From NCBI RefSeq assembly GCF_016595525.1, contig NZ_JAENII010000014.1:62001-126000 (forward strand): a stretch of DNA of 64,000 nucleotides, in the 5' to 3' direction. The notes beneath the pieces were generated by a model. The model was not told where the DNA came from. It searched no databases and saw only the letters and a program-made list of their open reading frames with translations. Each line of letters begins with the position of its first letter. Within the stretch, counting starts at the first letter, position 1. The position numbers were made by a program, and so were the translations under genes. Shown here piece after piece: positions 20,958-28,261 of the stretch. This DNA comes from Haloferula rosea (GTDB taxonomy: Bacteria > Verrucomicrobiota > Verrucomicrobiia > Verrucomicrobiales > Akkermansiaceae).

Positions 20958-22535
20958 TCAGCGGGCGAACTCGCCGTCCACCATGCGCTGGATTCCCAGC
21001 GGATTGCCGTCGCGCAGCTCCTCGGGGAGCGCCGCCGCGGGGAATCCCTGCCAGGCCACAGGCCGGCAGAACCGATGGATCGCCATGGTTCCGACGGAAG
21101 TACTACGCCCATCCGAAGTCGACGGGAACGGCCCTCCGTGAACCATCGACGGGCACACCTCGACACCGGTCGGGAAGCCGTTGAAGATCAGGCGTCCGGC
21201 CCGACGTTCCAACGCCCCGATCAGGCCGGGACGCTCGGCGATTTCCTCTTCGGTCCCATGCACGGTGGCCGTCAGCTGACCTTCCAACTCCGGAATGGTC
21301 GCCTCGATCTCATCCATTGACCCACGAACGATCAGGGTGCCGGGACCGAACATCTCCCCATGCAACCGGGCTTCCTCGAGGAAGCGTCGGACATTGACTG
21401 AGAAGACCACCGGAACCGCCCGCTCCTCGACCTGCTTGGTGAACGCGTGCGCGACGGTTTCCACCCCCTCGGTCTCGCCGAAGGATTCCGTCGCGTCCTT
21501 GAAAGCCTGGCAAATTCCCGAATTCAGCATCACCGCGGACGGTGCGACTTCGATCAACTCCTTCAACTTCGCCAGGAAGGCCTCACCATGCCCGTCGGGC
21601 AGGAAAACCAAACCGGGATTCGTGCAGAATTGTCCTGCTCCCAGAGTCAGGGATCCGAACAAGCCCTCCGCCAGTGCCTCGCCACGAGCATCGACCGCCT
21701 TCGGCATGAGCACGACGGGATTCACCGAGCTCATCTCCGCGTAAACCGGGATCGGTTGCGGCCGATTGGCCGCGGCATCCATCAAGGCGAGCCCCCCACT
21801 TCGGGAGCCCGTGAATCCCACCGCCTGCACCACCGGGTGCTTGACCAGCGACATCCCCACGTCGCGACCCGAGCCGTAGAGCAGCGAGAAGACGCCCTCG
21901 GGCATGTCGGTGGCCTGGGCAGCACGAACCACGCAGTCTCCCACGATTTCAGCGATGCCCGGATGCGACGAGTGAGCCTTCACCAGCACCGGACATCCCG
22001 CTGCCAGAGCCGCAGCCGTATCCCCGCCCGCCACGGAGAAGGCCAAGGGAAAGTTGCTGGCGCAGAACACCGCTACCGGCCCCAGCGGGCGCTGCATGGA
22101 TCGCAAGTCGGGCTTCGGCAACGGAGCGCGGTCCGGCTGGGCATGCTCGATGCGTGCGTCCACCCACGATCCCTCTTCGATCAAATCGGCGAACATCCTC
22201 AGCTGGCCGGTCGTCCGAGCCGTCTCGCCCCTCATGCGGGCTTCAGGGAGACCGGTTTCCAACGGTCCCCGCTCGGCAATCTGATCCACCGCCGATTCGA
22301 TCTCAGCCGCGATCGCCCGCAGGAAGCCCGCCCTCTTTTTACCCGACATGGATGAGAACACCGGGAAGGCTCGCTCGGCGAGAAGAACGGCCTGCTCGAC
22401 CTCCGACTCGCTGGGAGCATGGAACTCAGGATCGAGTTTCTGACCGCTGGCTGGATTCACGGCGGAACTGGTGGACCCACCGCCCCCGCTTCGTGAATAG
22501 CCGATGATGGATTTGCCTTGGATGGTGTAGCTCAT
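20958..22535 (-). CDS. 2-oxoglutarate semialdehyde (2,5-dioxovalerate) dehydrogenase
   Basis: 525 residues of the aldehyde dehydrogenase superfamily, with features of the KGSADH branch: ASNFPLAFSVAGGDTAAALAAG for cofactor binding, GFTGSRSGG, AEMSSVNPV and the catalytic Cys in GAGQFCTNPGL. It oxidises 2-oxoglutarate semialdehyde to 2-oxoglutarate, the last step in hydroxyproline and pentose/hexarate catabolism. The adjacent hydroxyproline-epimerase-type gene points to the hydroxyproline route. The same-strand epimerase gene lies 100 bases upstream. Confidence 0.92.
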   Translation of the reverse strand: MSYTIQGKSIIGYSRSGGGGSTSSAVNPASGQKLDPEFHAPSESEVEQAVLLAERAFPVFSSMSGKKRAGFLRAIAAEIESAVDQIAERGPLETGLPEARMRGETARTTGQLRMFADLIEEGSWVDARIEHAQPDRAPLPKPDLRSMQRPLGPVAVFCASNFPLAFSVAGGDTAAALAAGCPVLVKAHSSHPGIAEIVGDCVVRAAQATDMPEGVFSLLYGSGRDVGMSLVKHPVVQAVGFTGSRSGGLALMDAAANRPQPIPVYAEMSSVNPVVLMPKAVDARGEALAEGLFGSLTLGAGQFCTNPGLVFLPDGHGEAFLAKLKELIEVAPSAVMLNSGICQAFKDATESFGETEGVETVAHAFTKQVEERAVPVVFSVNVRRFLEEARLHGEMFGPGTLIVRGSMDEIEATIPELEGQLTATVHGTEEEIAERPGLIGALERRAGRLIFNGFPTGVEVCPSMVHGGPFPSTSDGRSTSVGTMAIHRFCRPVAWQGFPAAALPEELRDGNPLGIQRMVDGEFAR

Positions 22536-22636: not shown

Positions 22637-23581
22637 TCAGATACTAGGAATCCCGTATCGAAAGGGATCGTCGTCATGGAATTCATAGGCCGACTCACCG
22701 GTCACCCAGGCGCGCCCACTGACCAGAGGCAGGACCTTCCCCTCGCCGAGGTCCCGCACCCGCCCCTCGAAGACGGTATCGAGGATGCCTGCCTGTCTCC
22801 ACAAGTCACCCGCCGACAGTTTCCCGTCCGCATGAAGGCAAGCCAGCTTGGCGCTCGTCCCGGTCCCACACGGAGACCGGTCATAGGCACTGCCCGGACA
22901 CAGCACGAAATTCCGGCTATCCGAGGTCGCCTGATCCGTCGGCGGCCCGAACACCTCGATGTGATCGATCTCCCCGCCATCCGCACCGCGGATCTCCGCC
23001 GCCTCCAGTGCCGCCCGCACCGAGCGCCCGAAACGGGTCAGCTCCTCAAGATTTTCCGGAACCACCGACGGCCCCTGCCCATCGATCAGGAAAAACCAGT
23101 TCCCGCCCCACGCGATGTCCCCCGTGACCTCGCCCCAGCCATCGACGTGAATGGCAACGGATGCCTCCGCCCGATAGCTCGGCACATTTTCAACCGTCAC
23201 CCGCCCGCCTTCACCGACTTCCGCCGTGACGACCCCCACCGGCGTCTCGATCCCGTGCGTCCCGGCGCCGATTCGGCCCATGTGCACCAGCGTCGCGACC
23301 AGGCCGATCGTTCCGTGAATGCACATGTTCAGCGTGCCCACGTTATTGAAGAAAATCACGCCGCACTCACACGACTCCAGGTCCGACTCACAAAGCAACG
23401 CCCCGACCATGGCGTCATGACCCCGGGGCTCGTTGCACACCGAGCTGCGTACCCAGTCATACTCTTTCCGGAATCTCACGGCTCGCTCCGCGACCGTTCC
23501 CGGGCCGAGATCAATCGGACCCTCAACCACGACTCGGGTGGGCTCTCCTTCGGTATGGGAATCGATCACTGCTAGCTTCAT
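22637..23581 (-). CDS. 4-hydroxyproline 2-epimerase / proline racemase family
   Basis: 314 residues of the proline racemase superfamily. Both catalytic cysteines are present: MCIHGTIG (residue ~86) and SPCGTGTSAK (residue ~236), so it should be an epimerase or racemase rather than a dehydratase. The first motif has Ile where MCGHG is the common form. The family interconverts trans-4-hydroxy-L-proline and cis-4-hydroxy-D-proline. The neighbouring KGSADH, FAD dehydrogenase and AraC regulator support hydroxyproline use. It is divergent from the regulator gene. Confidence 0.92.
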   Translation of the reverse strand: MKLAVIDSHTEGEPTRVVVEGPIDLGPGTVAERAVRFRKEYDWVRSSVCNEPRGHDAMVGALLCESDLESCECGVIFFNNVGTLNMCIHGTIGLVATLVHMGRIGAGTHGIETPVGVVTAEVGEGGRVTVENVPSYRAEASVAIHVDGWGEVTGDIAWGGNWFFLIDGQGPSVVPENLEELTRFGRSVRAALEAAEIRGADGGEIDHIEVFGPPTDQATSDSRNFVLCPGSAYDRSPCGTGTSAKLACLHADGKLSAGDLWRQAGILDTVFEGRVRDLGEGKVLPLVSGRAWVTGESAYEFHDDDPFRYGIPSI

Positions 23582-23670: not shown

Positions 23671-24429
23671 ATGCAACTTCACCAAGCCGCTGCCCTGTTC
23701 CGCAAACAATTCGGTGAGTCAATCGACGGCCTCCTGCCGATTGCCGACCTGTTTGATAACGTCCCGGACATCCTCGTCTTCGTGAAAGACCGCAGTTTCC
23801 GCTACGTCGCCGTCAGTGCGAGCTTCGCCTCACGCTGTGGTCTGGCCGACAAGCTTTCCGCCATCGGCCACACCGCCCGCGAGCTCTACCCCGAGCCCCT
23901 CGCCGAGGCATTCATCGAGCAGGACCGGGAAATCCTCCTCACCGGTGTGGGTTTCCACGACCGCCTCGAACTCCACCTGTATCCCGGTGGGCGCAGCGGC
24001 TGGTGCGTCACATGCAAGGAGCCCATCCGCGGAAAGGACGGGACCGTGATCGGCATCTGCGGCATGTCCCGGGATCTCCACGCCGTCAGCGACAAGGACA
24101 AGAACTACGAGGCACTGTCGAAAACCGTCGACTACATCCACCGTCACTTCGACGAACCCCTGCGACTTCCCCAGCTTGCCGAAATGGCTGGCCTTTCGGT
24201 CTATCAGTTCGACCAGCGCATTCGCGCCCTTTTCCACGTCACCGCCGGGCAGTATCTGGTCAAGGTGCGCATCGATTCCGCCTGCGAACTGCTCGCCAGC
24301 ACAAAAGATGCCATTGCCCAGATCGCCTTGAGCTGCGGCTACTCCGATCAATCGGCGTTTTCCAGGCAGTTCAAGCAGGCCGTCGGCGTCAGCCCGCTGG
24401 CCTACCGGAAGAAGATGGAAGCCAGCTGA
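23671..24429 (+). CDS. PAS-domain AraC-family transcriptional regulator
   Basis: 252 residues. An N-terminal PAS-type sensor (about residues 25-135, DNVPDILVFVKDRSFRYVAVS with a PAC-like end GICGMSRDL) is joined to a C-terminal AraC DNA-binding domain (residues 150-250) with two helix-turn-helix units: LPQLAEMAGLSVYQF and IAQIALSCGYSDQSAFSRQFK. The divergent placement before the epimerase suggests it controls the hydroxyproline cluster, sensing a metabolite or cofactor through PAS. It is convergent with the dehydrogenase gene, 5 bases apart. Confidence 0.92.
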   Translation: MQLHQAAALFRKQFGESIDGLLPIADLFDNVPDILVFVKDRSFRYVAVSASFASRCGLADKLSAIGHTARELYPEPLAEAFIEQDREILLTGVGFHDRLELHLYPGGRSGWCVTCKEPIRGKDGTVIGICGMSRDLHAVSDKDKNYEALSKTVDYIHRHFDEPLRLPQLAEMAGLSVYQFDQRIRALFHVTAGQYLVKVRIDSACELLASTKDAIAQIALSCGYSDQSAFSRQFKQAVGVSPLAYRKKMEAS

Positions 24430-24434
24430 GAAGC

Positions 24435-25709
24435 TCACCCGAACCGACCGACCGCCAGATCCCCGATCGGAGTGAACGGCTTGCGACCCGTCAGCAGATC
24501 CGCCATCAAGCGACCCGTGACCGGCCCGAGGCTGAGGCCCATCATGGCGTGGCCGGTCGCCGCGTAGAGGTTCTCCATCCCATCCACCGCACCCAGATAC
24601 GGCATCCCGTCCGGCGAGACCGGCCTCAGCCCGGCCCACGGCTCGACGCCATCGAAATCCTCCTCGGAGAAGCGTGGGAAATAGCGGGAGATCGACTTGA
24701 TGATCCCGTGCACGCGTTGGCGGTTGATCGACAACCGGTCGCCACCCACTTCCATCGTGCCTGCGAACCTCAACGACTTACCCATCGGCGTGATGGCCAC
24801 TTTGGCTTCGGCGAAAATCGAGCAGAGCCGGGGCAGTTCAACGGGGTCGTTCAAGGTCAGCGAATACCCCTTGCCCGCCTGTAGCGGGAGCTTCAGTCCG
24901 ACCTGGCGCAGCAGGCCCGCGGTCCACACTCCACCGGCAACCACGAAGCGCCCTCCCTCAAACGCCCGCTCACCCGACCGCACAGCCATCACTCGTCCAC
25001 CGGACGACACGACCTCATCCACCGGCACCCCATATTCGATCCGCCCTCCGAGTTCAACCACCCGCTCACGCAGCCGCCCCATGAAACGGGACGGATCCAG
25101 ATGGCAATCCTGCCGGTAGTGCACCGCTCCCTCGACCCGCATGGTCACATCGGGATCCATGGCCGCCGCCCCCGCGGCATCCAGCACCTCTGCCCGCACC
25201 CCGATCTCCTCAGCCTCCTGCGCCACCTCCGCTTCGGCCTCAAGCCCCTTGGCGGAATCACAAAGCATCAACAGACCTTTCTCGCACCAACCGAAATCAT
25301 CCTCGCTCGCCAGCTCGGCAAAAAGCCGCCGACTTTCGAGGTTCAGATCCCGCAGCAAGCCGCGCGAGGCCGCGACGTGAGCGGGAGTCGACTTGCGGTA
25401 AAAGAGCCAGCCCCACCGCATCAGATCCAGACTCAAGCGAGGTTTGACATAAAACGGACTCTCCGGATCGAGCATCCAGCGTAGCCCCTTCGCAATCATG
25501 CCCGGAGCTGCCAGCGGGATGAAATGGCTCGGCACCACCATGCCCGCATTCCCCACCGAGCAACTGTCCCCGCCCTCGGGCTCCCTTTCCAGCACCGTCA
25601 CTTCCAGCCCGGCCCGCAGCGCGTAATACGCCGTGGCCAGTCCAATGACGCCCCCGCCGACGACGACCACCCGATTTCGCGCTTCCTGCATCACGAATAA
25701 ACTACTCAT
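24435..25709 (-). CDS. FAD-dependent D-amino acid / D-hydroxyproline dehydrogenase
   Basis: 424 residues of the DadA-like glycine/D-amino acid oxidase family. The FAD motif VVVGGGVIGLATAYY is near the N-terminus and an ERxxxGG-like EREPEGGDSCSVGNAG follows; the C-terminal GLRPVSPDGMPYLG and GHAMMGLSLGP are typical. It probably oxidises cis-4-hydroxy-D-proline to the pyrroline carboxylate and passes electrons to the membrane chain. The start may be ATG 25709 or ATG 25691. It closes the catabolic cluster on the right. Confidence 0.9.
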   Translation of the reverse strand: MSSLFVMQEARNRVVVVGGGVIGLATAYYALRAGLEVTVLEREPEGGDSCSVGNAGMVVPSHFIPLAAPGMIAKGLRWMLDPESPFYVKPRLSLDLMRWGWLFYRKSTPAHVAASRGLLRDLNLESRRLFAELASEDDFGWCEKGLLMLCDSAKGLEAEAEVAQEAEEIGVRAEVLDAAGAAAMDPDVTMRVEGAVHYRQDCHLDPSRFMGRLRERVVELGGRIEYGVPVDEVVSSGGRVMAVRSGERAFEGGRFVVAGGVWTAGLLRQVGLKLPLQAGKGYSLTLNDPVELPRLCSIFAEAKVAITPMGKSLRFAGTMEVGGDRLSINRQRVHGIIKSISRYFPRFSEEDFDGVEPWAGLRPVSPDGMPYLGAVDGMENLYAATGHAMMGLSLGPVTGRLMADLLTGRKPFTPIGDLAVGRFG

Positions 25710-25802: not shown

Positions 25803-26381
25803 ATGATTCGCGCCGCACTCCTGATCCTCTGCCTGCTCGCCACCAGCGCGGCCGTGGCTGCGCCAAAAATCGCCAGTATTCGTGTCGGAGACGTTTATCG
25901 CGAACTGGACAAGACCAAGGAAATGAACGCCGACATCACGGCGAAACGCCAGGCCTTGCTCAGGGACCCACGGCTTGCAGCCTACCGGGAGGCCTTTGGC
26001 GACCTTGAGGCACTTCAAAAGGGACTGATCAAAGTCGCCGATCATGATCGCGCCACGCGCCAACGATTGATGCAGAAGTTCAACCTGAAACGTCAGGAAG
26101 CACTGACCCTCAAGCGTGAGTTCGAAGAGTTTCAGCGCAAGGAGACGAAGAAGATAGACCGGGAAATGGTCTCTCGTATGGAGGCCATCCTCACCGAGAT
26201 TCGTCAGAAGGCGGACACTCTGGGACAGAAGAACGGCTACGATTGGGTCATCGATGTGTCGGGAAAAACCAACACCGGCCTCCCATTCGTCCTTTACTCA
26301 AAGCCATCCGACGACATCACTAACGACGTGCTCTCCGCCATGGGACAAACCATCGCGGAGACCTCCGACGAAGACAACTGA
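25803..26381 (+). CDS. OmpH/Skp-family periplasmic chaperone-like protein
   Basis: 192 residues with signal peptide MIRAALLILCLLATSAAVA. The mature part opens with the family strand PKIASIRVGDVYRELDKTKE, continues as long charged helices (coiled coil, residues ~45-140) and ends with the beta strand YDWVIDVSGKT, as in Skp. Skp trimers hold unfolded outer-membrane proteins in the periplasm. It is followed after 6 bases by a membrane-anchored coiled-coil gene, likely its partner. Confidence 0.85.
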   Translation: MIRAALLILCLLATSAAVAAPKIASIRVGDVYRELDKTKEMNADITAKRQALLRDPRLAAYREAFGDLEALQKGLIKVADHDRATRQRLMQKFNLKRQEALTLKREFEEFQRKETKKIDREMVSRMEAILTEIRQKADTLGQKNGYDWVIDVSGKTNTGLPFVLYSKPSDDITNDVLSAMGQTIAETSDEDN

Positions 26382-26387
26382 CCCCTC

Positions 26388-26897
26388 ATGGAAACATTCC
26401 TCAACATCATCAAGGAGCCCTTCGTTTGGGGCCTCGCCATCGGCCTCGCCCTCACCATTTTCACTTGGAAATCCGGCCTCTCGAACAAGCTTCGGCTCTC
26501 GAAGGATGTGCGCCGACTTGAGAACGAACTCCGCGATCTTCAAGGGCACCTGAATACCCAGCTCAAGATCAACTCGCAAGGCAACCAACAGCTTCAGCAG
26601 GAGCTCGAAACCCTCCGCGAGCAGAACGAGAACATGCGGGTCTCGATGGCCACCCTGCAGAGCAAACCAGGACGCGCCGAAGTCCGCCAGTACCAGGTGA
26701 TGGAAGCCGCCGTGCGCCAGATGCGCGAGCAGGCCCCCGGTTTCGCCCCCGCTTGGGAAAAAGCGGTCCGGCAGGCCGAGACGGAAATCGAAGCCGGAGA
26801 GAACGGCCTCAAGAAACTGGTACGCAAGGTCATCCCGGGCATCGGCATGACGACCGGAACCCAAGCTTCCGGCTCCGACAACGAGGACAAGGACTGA
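26388..26897 (+). CDS. Membrane-anchored coiled-coil protein
   Basis: 169 residues: one N-terminal transmembrane segment (FVWGLAIGLALTIFTW, residues ~12-27), then a coiled coil from about 40 to 95 (LENELRDLQGHLN ... LQQELETLREQNENMR) and an acidic end. No enzyme motif is seen. Its start follows the Skp-like stop by 6 bases, so translational coupling is likely. Its job is unknown, perhaps envelope scaffolding. Confidence 0.75.
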   Translation: METFLNIIKEPFVWGLAIGLALTIFTWKSGLSNKLRLSKDVRRLENELRDLQGHLNTQLKINSQGNQQLQQELETLREQNENMRVSMATLQSKPGRAEVRQYQVMEAAVRQMREQAPGFAPAWEKAVRQAETEIEAGENGLKKLVRKVIPGIGMTTGTQASGSDNEDKD

Positions 26898-26991: not shown

Positions 26992-27020
26992 GACACGAAC
27001 CAAAAAATGAGGTTCATGTC
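26992..27020. promoter_or_regulatory. Inverted repeat upstream of the AraC-VHL gene
   Basis: GACACGAACC (26992-27001) and GGTTCATGTC (27011-27020) are inverted copies with one mismatch, spaced 9 bases apart and 65 bases before the AraC-VHL start. It could be an operator used for autoregulation, or an RNA hairpin in the leader. The rest of 26898-27085 shows no gene. Confidence 0.45.
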
Positions 27021-27085
27021 CAAATGGAGGATTGCCAGCCTCCCACAGAAATTGGTTGGATCTGCGGCCTGCCCGATTTGATCCA

Positions 27086-28261
27086 ATGACCCATTCCCCA
27101 TCCAGCTCTGAACAAGACCTCATCGAGCTCCTGAAGCTTGCTGGCCCGGAATGGATGAGTGACCGGGTCTGGAAAGCCGAAACGCTGCAACCCAGCGACC
27201 ACGAACTGGCGCTCCAGGTCGAAGGTCCAGCCTTCTGCTACCGTTGGGAAATCGAGGGCTCCCAGGTCAACGTTGCCTTCATCCCCTCTGGAACCACCAG
27301 CATCGCTCCCGGTCTTTCCAGACTGATGGTCATCGAGGTGGGGCGCGGCACCATCCGCGTCCACATCCCCGGACGGGACCCGCAAATCATTGGGGCCCTG
27401 TCTCCCGCGATCTATCAGCAGATCGCGGAACTGGTGACCGAGGCCCAGAATGCCATCGCGCAGGGGCTTTCGAGTTGGAATACGAGCATGTCGCTCATCG
27501 CAGGCAGCATGAGGATGGCCACACTGACCTTGGAAGCCGCCACCGCAGCCGCTGCCCCGGAACGCGGTGGCAAGCGCTCGCCGAAAAAGGATCAATTGGT
27601 GACCCAACTTCATGAGTGGCTGCGGCCCAACCTCGGCAACTCGGTCAAACTTGCCGATGCGGCCAAGCGCTTCGACAAGAGCCCGCGCCAACTCATCCGC
27701 ATCCTCAAGGAAACGACCGGCGCAGGATTCGCCGAGCACCTGACGATGCACCGGCTCACCTTGGCGCGCTCGCTCCTGATGCGCTCCGACCAGTCGGTCC
27801 GCGAAGTTGCCAAAGCCGCCGGCTTCAACAGCCGGGAGCAATTCATCCGCTCCTTCAACAAGGCCTTCTCGTGGACTCCCCTCCAGTTCCGCAAGGCGTG
27901 GAACCGGGCGTCCCTATCCGAAAGCGATCTGGAAACGCTCTGCAAGGTGTCCGGACGCTCGGAAGTGACTTGGACCCCACCCGGGGAAACCGCCCTGACT
28001 CCCGAGGAAGGAAGTGAAGGTGCACCCCACACCGTGGTGGTCGCCAACGCACTCCACGAGATCGTCGAGCTATTCTGGGTCAGCCCGCAAGGCAAGCAGG
28101 CACGCATCGACGTCCTCGAGCATGGAGGCATGGCCTTCGTCAACCGCGACAGCGGAGGGTCCGCATGGGTGGTCCGAGCTCCATCATCCGGACTGGAACG
28201 CTTCTTCGTCACCCCGGACGATCACTCACTGGCAATCGTCTCGCGCGAACTCGCCTCGTAG
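27086..28261 (+). CDS. AraC-family regulator with C-terminal pVHL beta-like domain
   Basis: 391 residues from ATG 27086. The N-terminal ~150 residues are an unrecognised sensor domain. Residues ~170-282 are an AraC DNA-binding domain with helices KLADAAKRFDKSPRQLIRIL and VREVAKAAGFNSREQFIRSF. The last ~77 residues (from about 315) look like the beta domain of the von Hippel-Lindau protein: VVVANALHEIVELFWVSPQG, then a Gly-rich turn and SAWVVRAP, matching the N, VxLxW, G and W-x-x-R spacing of human VHL. Bacterial VHL-beta domains exist as small stand-alone units; fusion to an AraC regulator is unusual. Its target and ligand are unknown. Confidence 0.85.
   Translation: MTHSPSSSEQDLIELLKLAGPEWMSDRVWKAETLQPSDHELALQVEGPAFCYRWEIEGSQVNVAFIPSGTTSIAPGLSRLMVIEVGRGTIRVHIPGRDPQIIGALSPAIYQQIAELVTEAQNAIAQGLSSWNTSMSLIAGSMRMATLTLEAATAAAAPERGGKRSPKKDQLVTQLHEWLRPNLGNSVKLADAAKRFDKSPRQLIRILKETTGAGFAEHLTMHRLTLARSLLMRSDQSVREVAKAAGFNSREQFIRSFNKAFSWTPLQFRKAWNRASLSESDLETLCKVSGRSEVTWTPPGETALTPEEGSEGAPHTVVVANALHEIVELFWVSPQGKQARIDVLEHGGMAFVNRDSGGSAWVVRAPSSGLERFFVTPDDHSLAIVSRELAS

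Follow-up and report, generated by a model that had tools for sequence, protein, structure and literature searches.

A 64,000-nucleotide stretch of the genome of Haloferula rosea (the window), a member of a verrucomicrobial genus, encodes an AraC-type regulator of 391 residues whose C-terminal tail is predicted to be a diverged homolog of the beta domain of von Hippel-Lindau protein (VHL), the human tumor-suppressor protein that reads hydroxyproline in the oxygen-sensing pathway of animals. A VHL fold thus appears to be joined to a bacterial DNA-binding domain, in an arrangement that is conserved across the genus and that carries a changed pocket. The regulator is rather likely to be a genus-specific and possibly autoregulated protein in which this diverged domain has been reused for another ligand or partner. 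If true, VHL-type domains would have wider uses, and the regulator would offer a test case for a reader domain changing its ligand.

Domain organization of the regulator

The regulator gene (positions 27086-28261, forward strand) is a single open frame with an ATG start. The DNA-binding part of the protein is a canonical AraC-type helix-turn-helix (residues 193-270; 27662-27895, forward strand), which matches the Pfam family HTH_18 with an E-value of 4.9e-19 and 68.8 bits against a curated cut-off of 33.6, placing the protein among AraC-type regulators. The same family is matched in all 16 orthologs, and structure matches of this part include 3w6v, 3oio and others. Within the regulator, the AraC DNA-binding domain is the only Pfam domain that exceeds its cut-offs.

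The helix-turn-helix is preceded by an N-terminal domain (residues 1-160; 27086-27565, forward strand) that, in the full-length AlphaFold2 model, consists of strands between residues 28 and 102 followed by helices at 107-125 and 130-156, and for which no family emerged from the searches. No consistent Pfam match to this domain emerged over the 16 orthologs, the matches outside the helix-turn-helix families being confined to one member each at E-values of 0.02-0.06. A profile search of the PDB gave weak and unconvincing matches, the best of them to designed armadillo proteins (E 0.01) and CarD (E 0.32). The structure matches listed for the full model were filled by the helix-turn-helix and VHL parts, and thus barely probe the N-terminal domain. 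The VHL-like beta domain (residues 302-391; 27989-28258, forward strand) occupies the C-terminus.

A predicted VHL-type beta domain in the C-terminal tail

Direct sequence searches from the tail do not reach VHL. The Pfam family of the VHL beta domain, PF01847, gave no match to the whole regulator, to the tail alone, or to any of the 16 orthologous tails, none of which attained the curated cut-off, and a PF01847 search of the regulator's own genome was likewise negative. Sequence searches of the PDB with the tail or a tail profile returned nothing up to an E-value of 10. The reading that there is no VHL match, drawn from these negative searches alone, was overturned by comparisons of profiles and of predicted folds.

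The profile comparison used an alignment of the 16 orthologous tails and one of 25 PF01847 domains from Verrucomicrobiota. A PF01847 search of the phylum matched 24 of 387 genomes, 20 of them above the cut-off, and 25 of the 30 rows listed were retained; L047-L050 (below the cut-off, three with internal stops) and L054 (a fragment of 25 positions) were left out. All but one of the 25 frames matched PF01847 again at an E-value of 0.001 or less. Aligned with hhalign, the two profiles match with a probability of 96.2 and an E-value of 2.2e-9 over 77 columns, the latter being a pairwise E-value and not that of a database search. Controls were clean: reversed profiles gave probabilities of 1.5% and 2.8%, and among 200 column permutations the highest score was 17.0, compared with 50.9 for the real alignment. 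When a profile of the whole regulator was compared with the bacterial VHL profile, a single match was found, at residues 305-388 (E 6.7e-8). Searched against the PDB, the bacterial VHL profile picks up human VHL with an E-value of about 5e-13, so that sequence connects the tail to human VHL by way of the bacterial VHL domains.

Consistent with this relationship, the bacterial VHL domains share a similar VELFW-type strand with the tail. Searched against the 387 genomes, the tail profile gave 21 matches outside the genus at E-values of 0.0005-0.09 (threshold 0.1), two of which fall in the right place on known VHL domains, ranking third (L082 over L034, E 0.006) and sixth (L085 over L029, E 0.014). 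The two top-ranking matches (E 0.0005 and 0.002) are not among the PF01847 rows of the phylum and, like the rest of the other 19, are partial.

Structure prediction points to the same fold. AlphaFold2 modeled the full-length regulator from the 16-row alignment with a mean pLDDT of 87.8, and four of the five models exceeded 82; of five runs on the tail only, one was confident (88.3), the others falling between 49 and 61. Against the PDB, a Foldseek search with the tail model gave 65 matches at an E-value of 0.001 or less, and the best 50 of these 65 are all VHL-complex entries, the top one with an E-value of 1.1e-4 and a probability of 1.00. In VIA-align 2 the tail-only model reached a best Z-score of 9.8, with an rmsd of 2.5-3.5 over 77-80 residues in the top matches. 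With the full model, AraC-type DNA-binding domains come first among the matches listed and VHL entries next, residues 302-391 superimposing on residues 62-155 of human VHL with an rmsd of 1.9-2.2 Å over 82-84 residues. The corresponding Z-scores (10.4-11.0) exceed the 7-8 that VIA-align 2 quotes as typical where there is no clear match. Identity between the tail and VHL in these structure alignments is 17-18%.

By its profile match and predicted fold, then, the tail is a VHL beta domain in the wider sense of a homologous fold. The preliminary description, which had proposed an AraC regulator carrying a VHL beta-like domain from an alignment by eye, was borne out on this point by the hhalign comparison with its controls, by Foldseek and by VIA-align 2; the checks against VHL that it had named placed VHL-complex entries at the head of the Foldseek matches and the profile match well above noise. 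Its coordinates for the gene and its placement of the domain at the C-terminus stand, while the extent it gave, the last 77 residues, is somewhat short, the domain beginning near residue 302. The likeness ends with the beta domain. The regulator chain stops where the VHL alpha domain, which binds elongin C, would start (residue 391 aligns to VHL 155 in several matches), and a protein lacking this domain does not qualify as a pVHL-type E3 ligase subunit.

Distribution and conservation

Orthologs matching over most of the length are found in 16 of the 18 Haloferula and Luteolibacter genomes sampled, the two genomes without one being 61% and 72% complete. They include records from Haloferula sp. 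BvORR071, Luteolibacter marinus and metagenome assemblies (six loci), and in two of them (L015 and L016) the start was set by alignment, without an ATG. The regulator's own genome holds one match at an E-value of 1e-10 or less. Among 39 genomes of other relatives there is no full-length ortholog; four match by the helix-turn-helix part only, and these four of the 20 matching genomes were excluded from the ortholog set.

Mean pairwise identity among the orthologs is 0.749 in the helix-turn-helix, 0.667 in the tail and 0.477 in the N-terminal domain, and the higher value in the tail than in the N-terminal domain suggests, as far as sequence comparison goes, that the tail is under selection. In a tree of 81 columns with midpoint rooting only, in which most inner forks are weakly supported, the AraC tails cluster together (support 100/98), split off from human VHL and the other VHL domains by a stem of 1.65 changes per column. 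Such a long-stemmed group would be accounted for by one recruitment event and rapid change thereafter.

The hydroxyproline pocket

According to the excerpt of PMC9528729 that describes the VHL pocket, hydroxyproline is surrounded by Trp88, Tyr98, His110, Ser111, His115 and Trp117, and three of these side chains, those of Ser111, His115 and Tyr98, hydrogen-bond to it. At positions 88, 98, 111, 115 and 117 of the joint alignment, human VHL reads W-Y-S-H-W. Twelve of the 16 AraC tails have W-I-D-S-W, the remaining four being R-V-D-S-W, E-H-T-S-W, C-I-D-S-W and H-M-S-T-W. The preliminary description had pointed to the tyrosine, serine and histidine of VHL as residues to look for in the tail, and they are largely gone: none of the 16 tails has Tyr98 or His115, Ser111 is replaced in 14, by Asp in all 14, with Ser or Thr left at this position in two, and no tail has all five pocket residues together. 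The position of His115 is occupied by Ser or Thr in 16 of 16. Trp117 and the position of Asn78 are retained in every tail, and Trp88 in 12, giving way to R, E, C or H in four diverged orthologs, so that the pocket, as rebuilt, varies among the orthologs. A gap of one residue, somewhere between positions 104 and 111, has to be opened to align the pocket; in the window protein no shift of it yields Tyr98 or His115.

In contrast, 21 of the 25 Verrucomicrobiota VHL domains recognized by Pfam keep all five residues (with Ser or Thr at 111), a count biased upwards by their having been picked with a profile that rewards pocket residues, whereas the 16 AraC tails were picked otherwise. Judged by its aligned residues, the tail would not be classed as a VHL-type hydroxyproline reader, and with most of the hydroxyproline-recognizing residues gone it probably senses or binds something else.

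One specific form of this idea, tenable if tentative, is that the protein is a one-component regulator with a VHL-fold sensor in which the pocket has been remodeled, Asp and Ser standing in for Ser and His, to take a different and perhaps amine-bearing ligand or a peptide mark. The domain might instead bind no ligand at all and act as a structural or dimerization module, or as a protein-docking surface that fixes the assembly of the regulator on DNA. The invariant residues of the tail (T316, V319, N321, E328, R340, L344, G347, W361 and F374) could be mostly core or paired-charge positions, as a ligand-free module would have them, and the variation at the position of Trp88 in four of 16 orthologs is of a piece with this. 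The Asp at the Ser111 position and the Ser or Thr at the His115 position, however, are conserved at the ligand site of VHL, and a ligand-free role is somewhat unlikely.

Other VHL-type domains of the phylum

The 25 Verrucomicrobiota frames with PF01847 (L027-L046, L051-L053, L055 and L056) are of a different build. DPPIV_N is found in 20 of them and Peptidase_S9 in 19, counts that are lower bounds as most of the frames are truncated at a locus end, and no helix-turn-helix family was matched in any of the 25 at an E-value of 0.001 or less. These proteins are a candidate lead in their own right, in that their domain content would suit prolyl-peptidase-like proteins that carry a VHL-type module for binding hydroxyproline and whose substrates might resemble collagen or extensin. 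Two of the 25 match Sulfatase and SGSH_C, namely L056, where by eye the VHL domain ends a sulfatase-like frame, and probably L053, where the VHL domain lies at the end of a 572-residue frame and the sulfatase match is presumed. In L055 several VHL-like tandem repeats appear, by eye, to follow the recognized one.

A conserved element upstream of the regulator gene

Upstream alignments of the regulator locus revealed a conserved element, ATGTC-N11-TTGCCA (27016-27037, forward strand), 49-70 bases upstream of the start codon, that is a candidate operator or promoter part. It lies between the regulator gene and the gene of its upstream neighbor (protein CC, below), and is exact in 13 of the 16 orthologous loci. 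G004 has an imperfect copy of the element, and G016 and G017 lack it. The latter two encode proteins that rank among the four most diverged; in G001, whose protein is likewise diverged, the element is present. Its two short boxes fall within about 20 bases, a layout that would fit an AraC-type protein. The intergenic repeats are limited to two short inverted pairs, neither of them upstream of the regulator.

Over the 18 genomes the exact pattern occurs 49 times, compared with two occurrences of the pattern read backwards, and 36 of the 49 lie away from the regulator gene. A longer form, searched with up to three mismatches, has 10 sites in the 18 genomes, eight of them upstream of the regulator gene, the form having been derived from those sites. 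Within the window, the search with up to two mismatches gave 10 matches, the element itself included, against 8.6 expected, which is not above chance. The simplest reading is that the regulator possibly acts on its own gene through the candidate element; alternatively, the element may be part of a promoter or the site of another factor.

The neighborhood and the hydroxyproline genes

The gene immediately upstream of the regulator encodes protein CC (26388-26897, forward strand), helix-rich by eye and with no Pfam or NCBIfam match, which is the upstream neighbor in all 16 orthologous loci. It is preceded by a gene for an OmpH-like protein (25803-26381, forward strand; PF03938, E 1.3e-13), a neighbor in 15 of 16, and, on the reverse strand, by a gene for an FAD-dependent oxidase or dehydrogenase (24435-25709; PF01266, with an NCBIfam match to D-amino acid dehydrogenase below the cut-off), again a neighbor in 15 of 16 and perhaps of the hydroxyproline pathway. 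Farther upstream lie genes for a second AraC-type regulator with a PAS domain (PAS-AraC; 23671-24429, forward strand; PAS_4 and HTH_18), for a probable 4-hydroxyproline epimerase (22637-23581, reverse strand), whose best family, NF052296, is matched with 389 bits, below the curated cut-off of 450, and for an aldehyde dehydrogenase (20958-22535, reverse strand; PF00171, with no subfamily over its cut-off among the matches listed), which may take part in the pathway judging by its place. A hydroxyproline-type cluster near the regulator, as the preliminary description had it, is thus present in the window, with epimerase, oxidase and aldehyde dehydrogenase at distances of 1.4-6 kb.

Elsewhere in the genus, conserved linkage of the regulator to hydroxyproline catabolic genes is not observed. 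The epimerase is present in 17 of the 18 genomes and lies within about 9 kb of the regulator in 8 of 16 (a sigma factor is near in six of 16). The PAS-AraC gene, by comparison, is found no more than about 3 kb from the epimerase in 17 of 17 genomes, eight of these cases being at AraC-VHL loci and nine at separate epimerase loci, so that a relocated cluster retains a regulator of its own. In G001 a further PAS-AraC-like match lies near the AraC-VHL gene. From this linkage, control of the hydroxyproline genes probably falls to PAS-AraC, with its PAS sensor, rather than to the AraC-VHL regulator. The oxidase mostly remains alongside the OmpH-like protein and CC; in G016 it accompanies the epimerase and not the AraC-VHL regulator, and in G023 it adjoins CC where no AraC-VHL gene was found. 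CC itself was found in 47 of 57 genomes in a search of relatives, and at 14 CC loci outside the genus the AraC-VHL gene is beside CC in none, OmpH in four and the oxidase in one. Because CC is widespread without the regulator, the latter appears either to have arrived next to an older gene or to have been lost elsewhere.

These observations bear on the more speculative part of the preliminary description, a link to hydroxyproline, under which the VHL-like domain would read free hydroxyproline or hydroxylated peptides and control the nearby catabolic genes. In its favor are the predicted VHL fold, the pathway-type genes close by in the window, the retention of Trp117 and in most cases Trp88, and the presence of one pathway-type gene, the FAD oxidase, near the regulator in 15 of 16 loci. 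Yet the pocket is mostly lost, the epimerase is nearby in only half of the loci and has PAS-AraC as its constant companion, the oxidase can part from the regulator, and matches to the candidate operator across the window do not exceed chance. A hydroxyproline sensor is therefore very improbable, and a hydroxyproline link argued from the neighborhood was rejected in view of the synteny tables and the pocket count.

A model for the regulator

The preferred reading, in which a diverged domain of VHL fold has taken on another ligand or partner, can be set out as a series of steps. The tail would descend from VHL-type domains like those of the phylum, which mostly sit on prolyl-peptidase-like proteins; that it has a common beta-sandwich shape only, without VHL kinship, would fit the failure of Pfam and PDB sequence searches from the tail and the identity of 17-18%, but is scarcely credible given a model-independent profile match with clean controls and VHL Z-scores above the range of unclear matches. 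The pocket would then have been rebuilt, with W-I-D-S-W in place of W-Y-S/T-H-W, and the rebuilt tail would bind another small ligand or a protein partner and in this way tune DNA binding. The regulator would act at least on its own gene, via the ATGTC-N11-TTGCCA candidate element.

Comparison with known systems

As such, bacterial VHL domains are already known: PF01847 detects them directly, and PMC9002001 is a bioinformatic note describing one such protein in Litorilituus. The main text of PMC4522959, on prokaryotic prolyl oligopeptidases, makes no mention of VHL or Hippel, and the available portion of PMC5800844 has nothing on bacterial VHL. The combination of an AraC-type regulator with a predicted VHL-fold domain is new; the literature searched contained no paper joining von Hippel-Lindau with the AraC family, and neither the domain combination nor the pocket change was found there.

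Compared to the VHL beta domain (PF01847, human pVHL 62-155), the tail is alike in its profile match, its predicted superposition to about 2 Å over 82-84 residues, and the positions of Asn78 and Trp117; it is unlike in having no Pfam match and in the replacement of Tyr98, Ser111 and His115 mostly by Ile, Asp and Ser. Unlike human pVHL, it is attached to an AraC helix-turn-helix and is followed by no alpha domain. The VHL domains of Verrucomicrobiota, from the same phylum, give the best profile match and have the VELFW-type strand in common with the tail, whereas 21 of 25 keep the five pocket residues and most belong to DPPIV_N/Peptidase_S9 proteins.

With AraC-type regulators (HTH_18) the protein shares the canonical DNA-binding domain, but here the helix-turn-helix is central, flanked by an N-terminal domain without an assigned family and by an extra C-terminal beta domain. 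LhpR is the AraC-type regulator of hydroxyproline genes in Pseudomonas. The AraC-VHL regulator resembles it in type and in having hydroxyproline genes near it in half of the genomes, and differs in that a separate PAS-AraC protein fits the control of those genes better.
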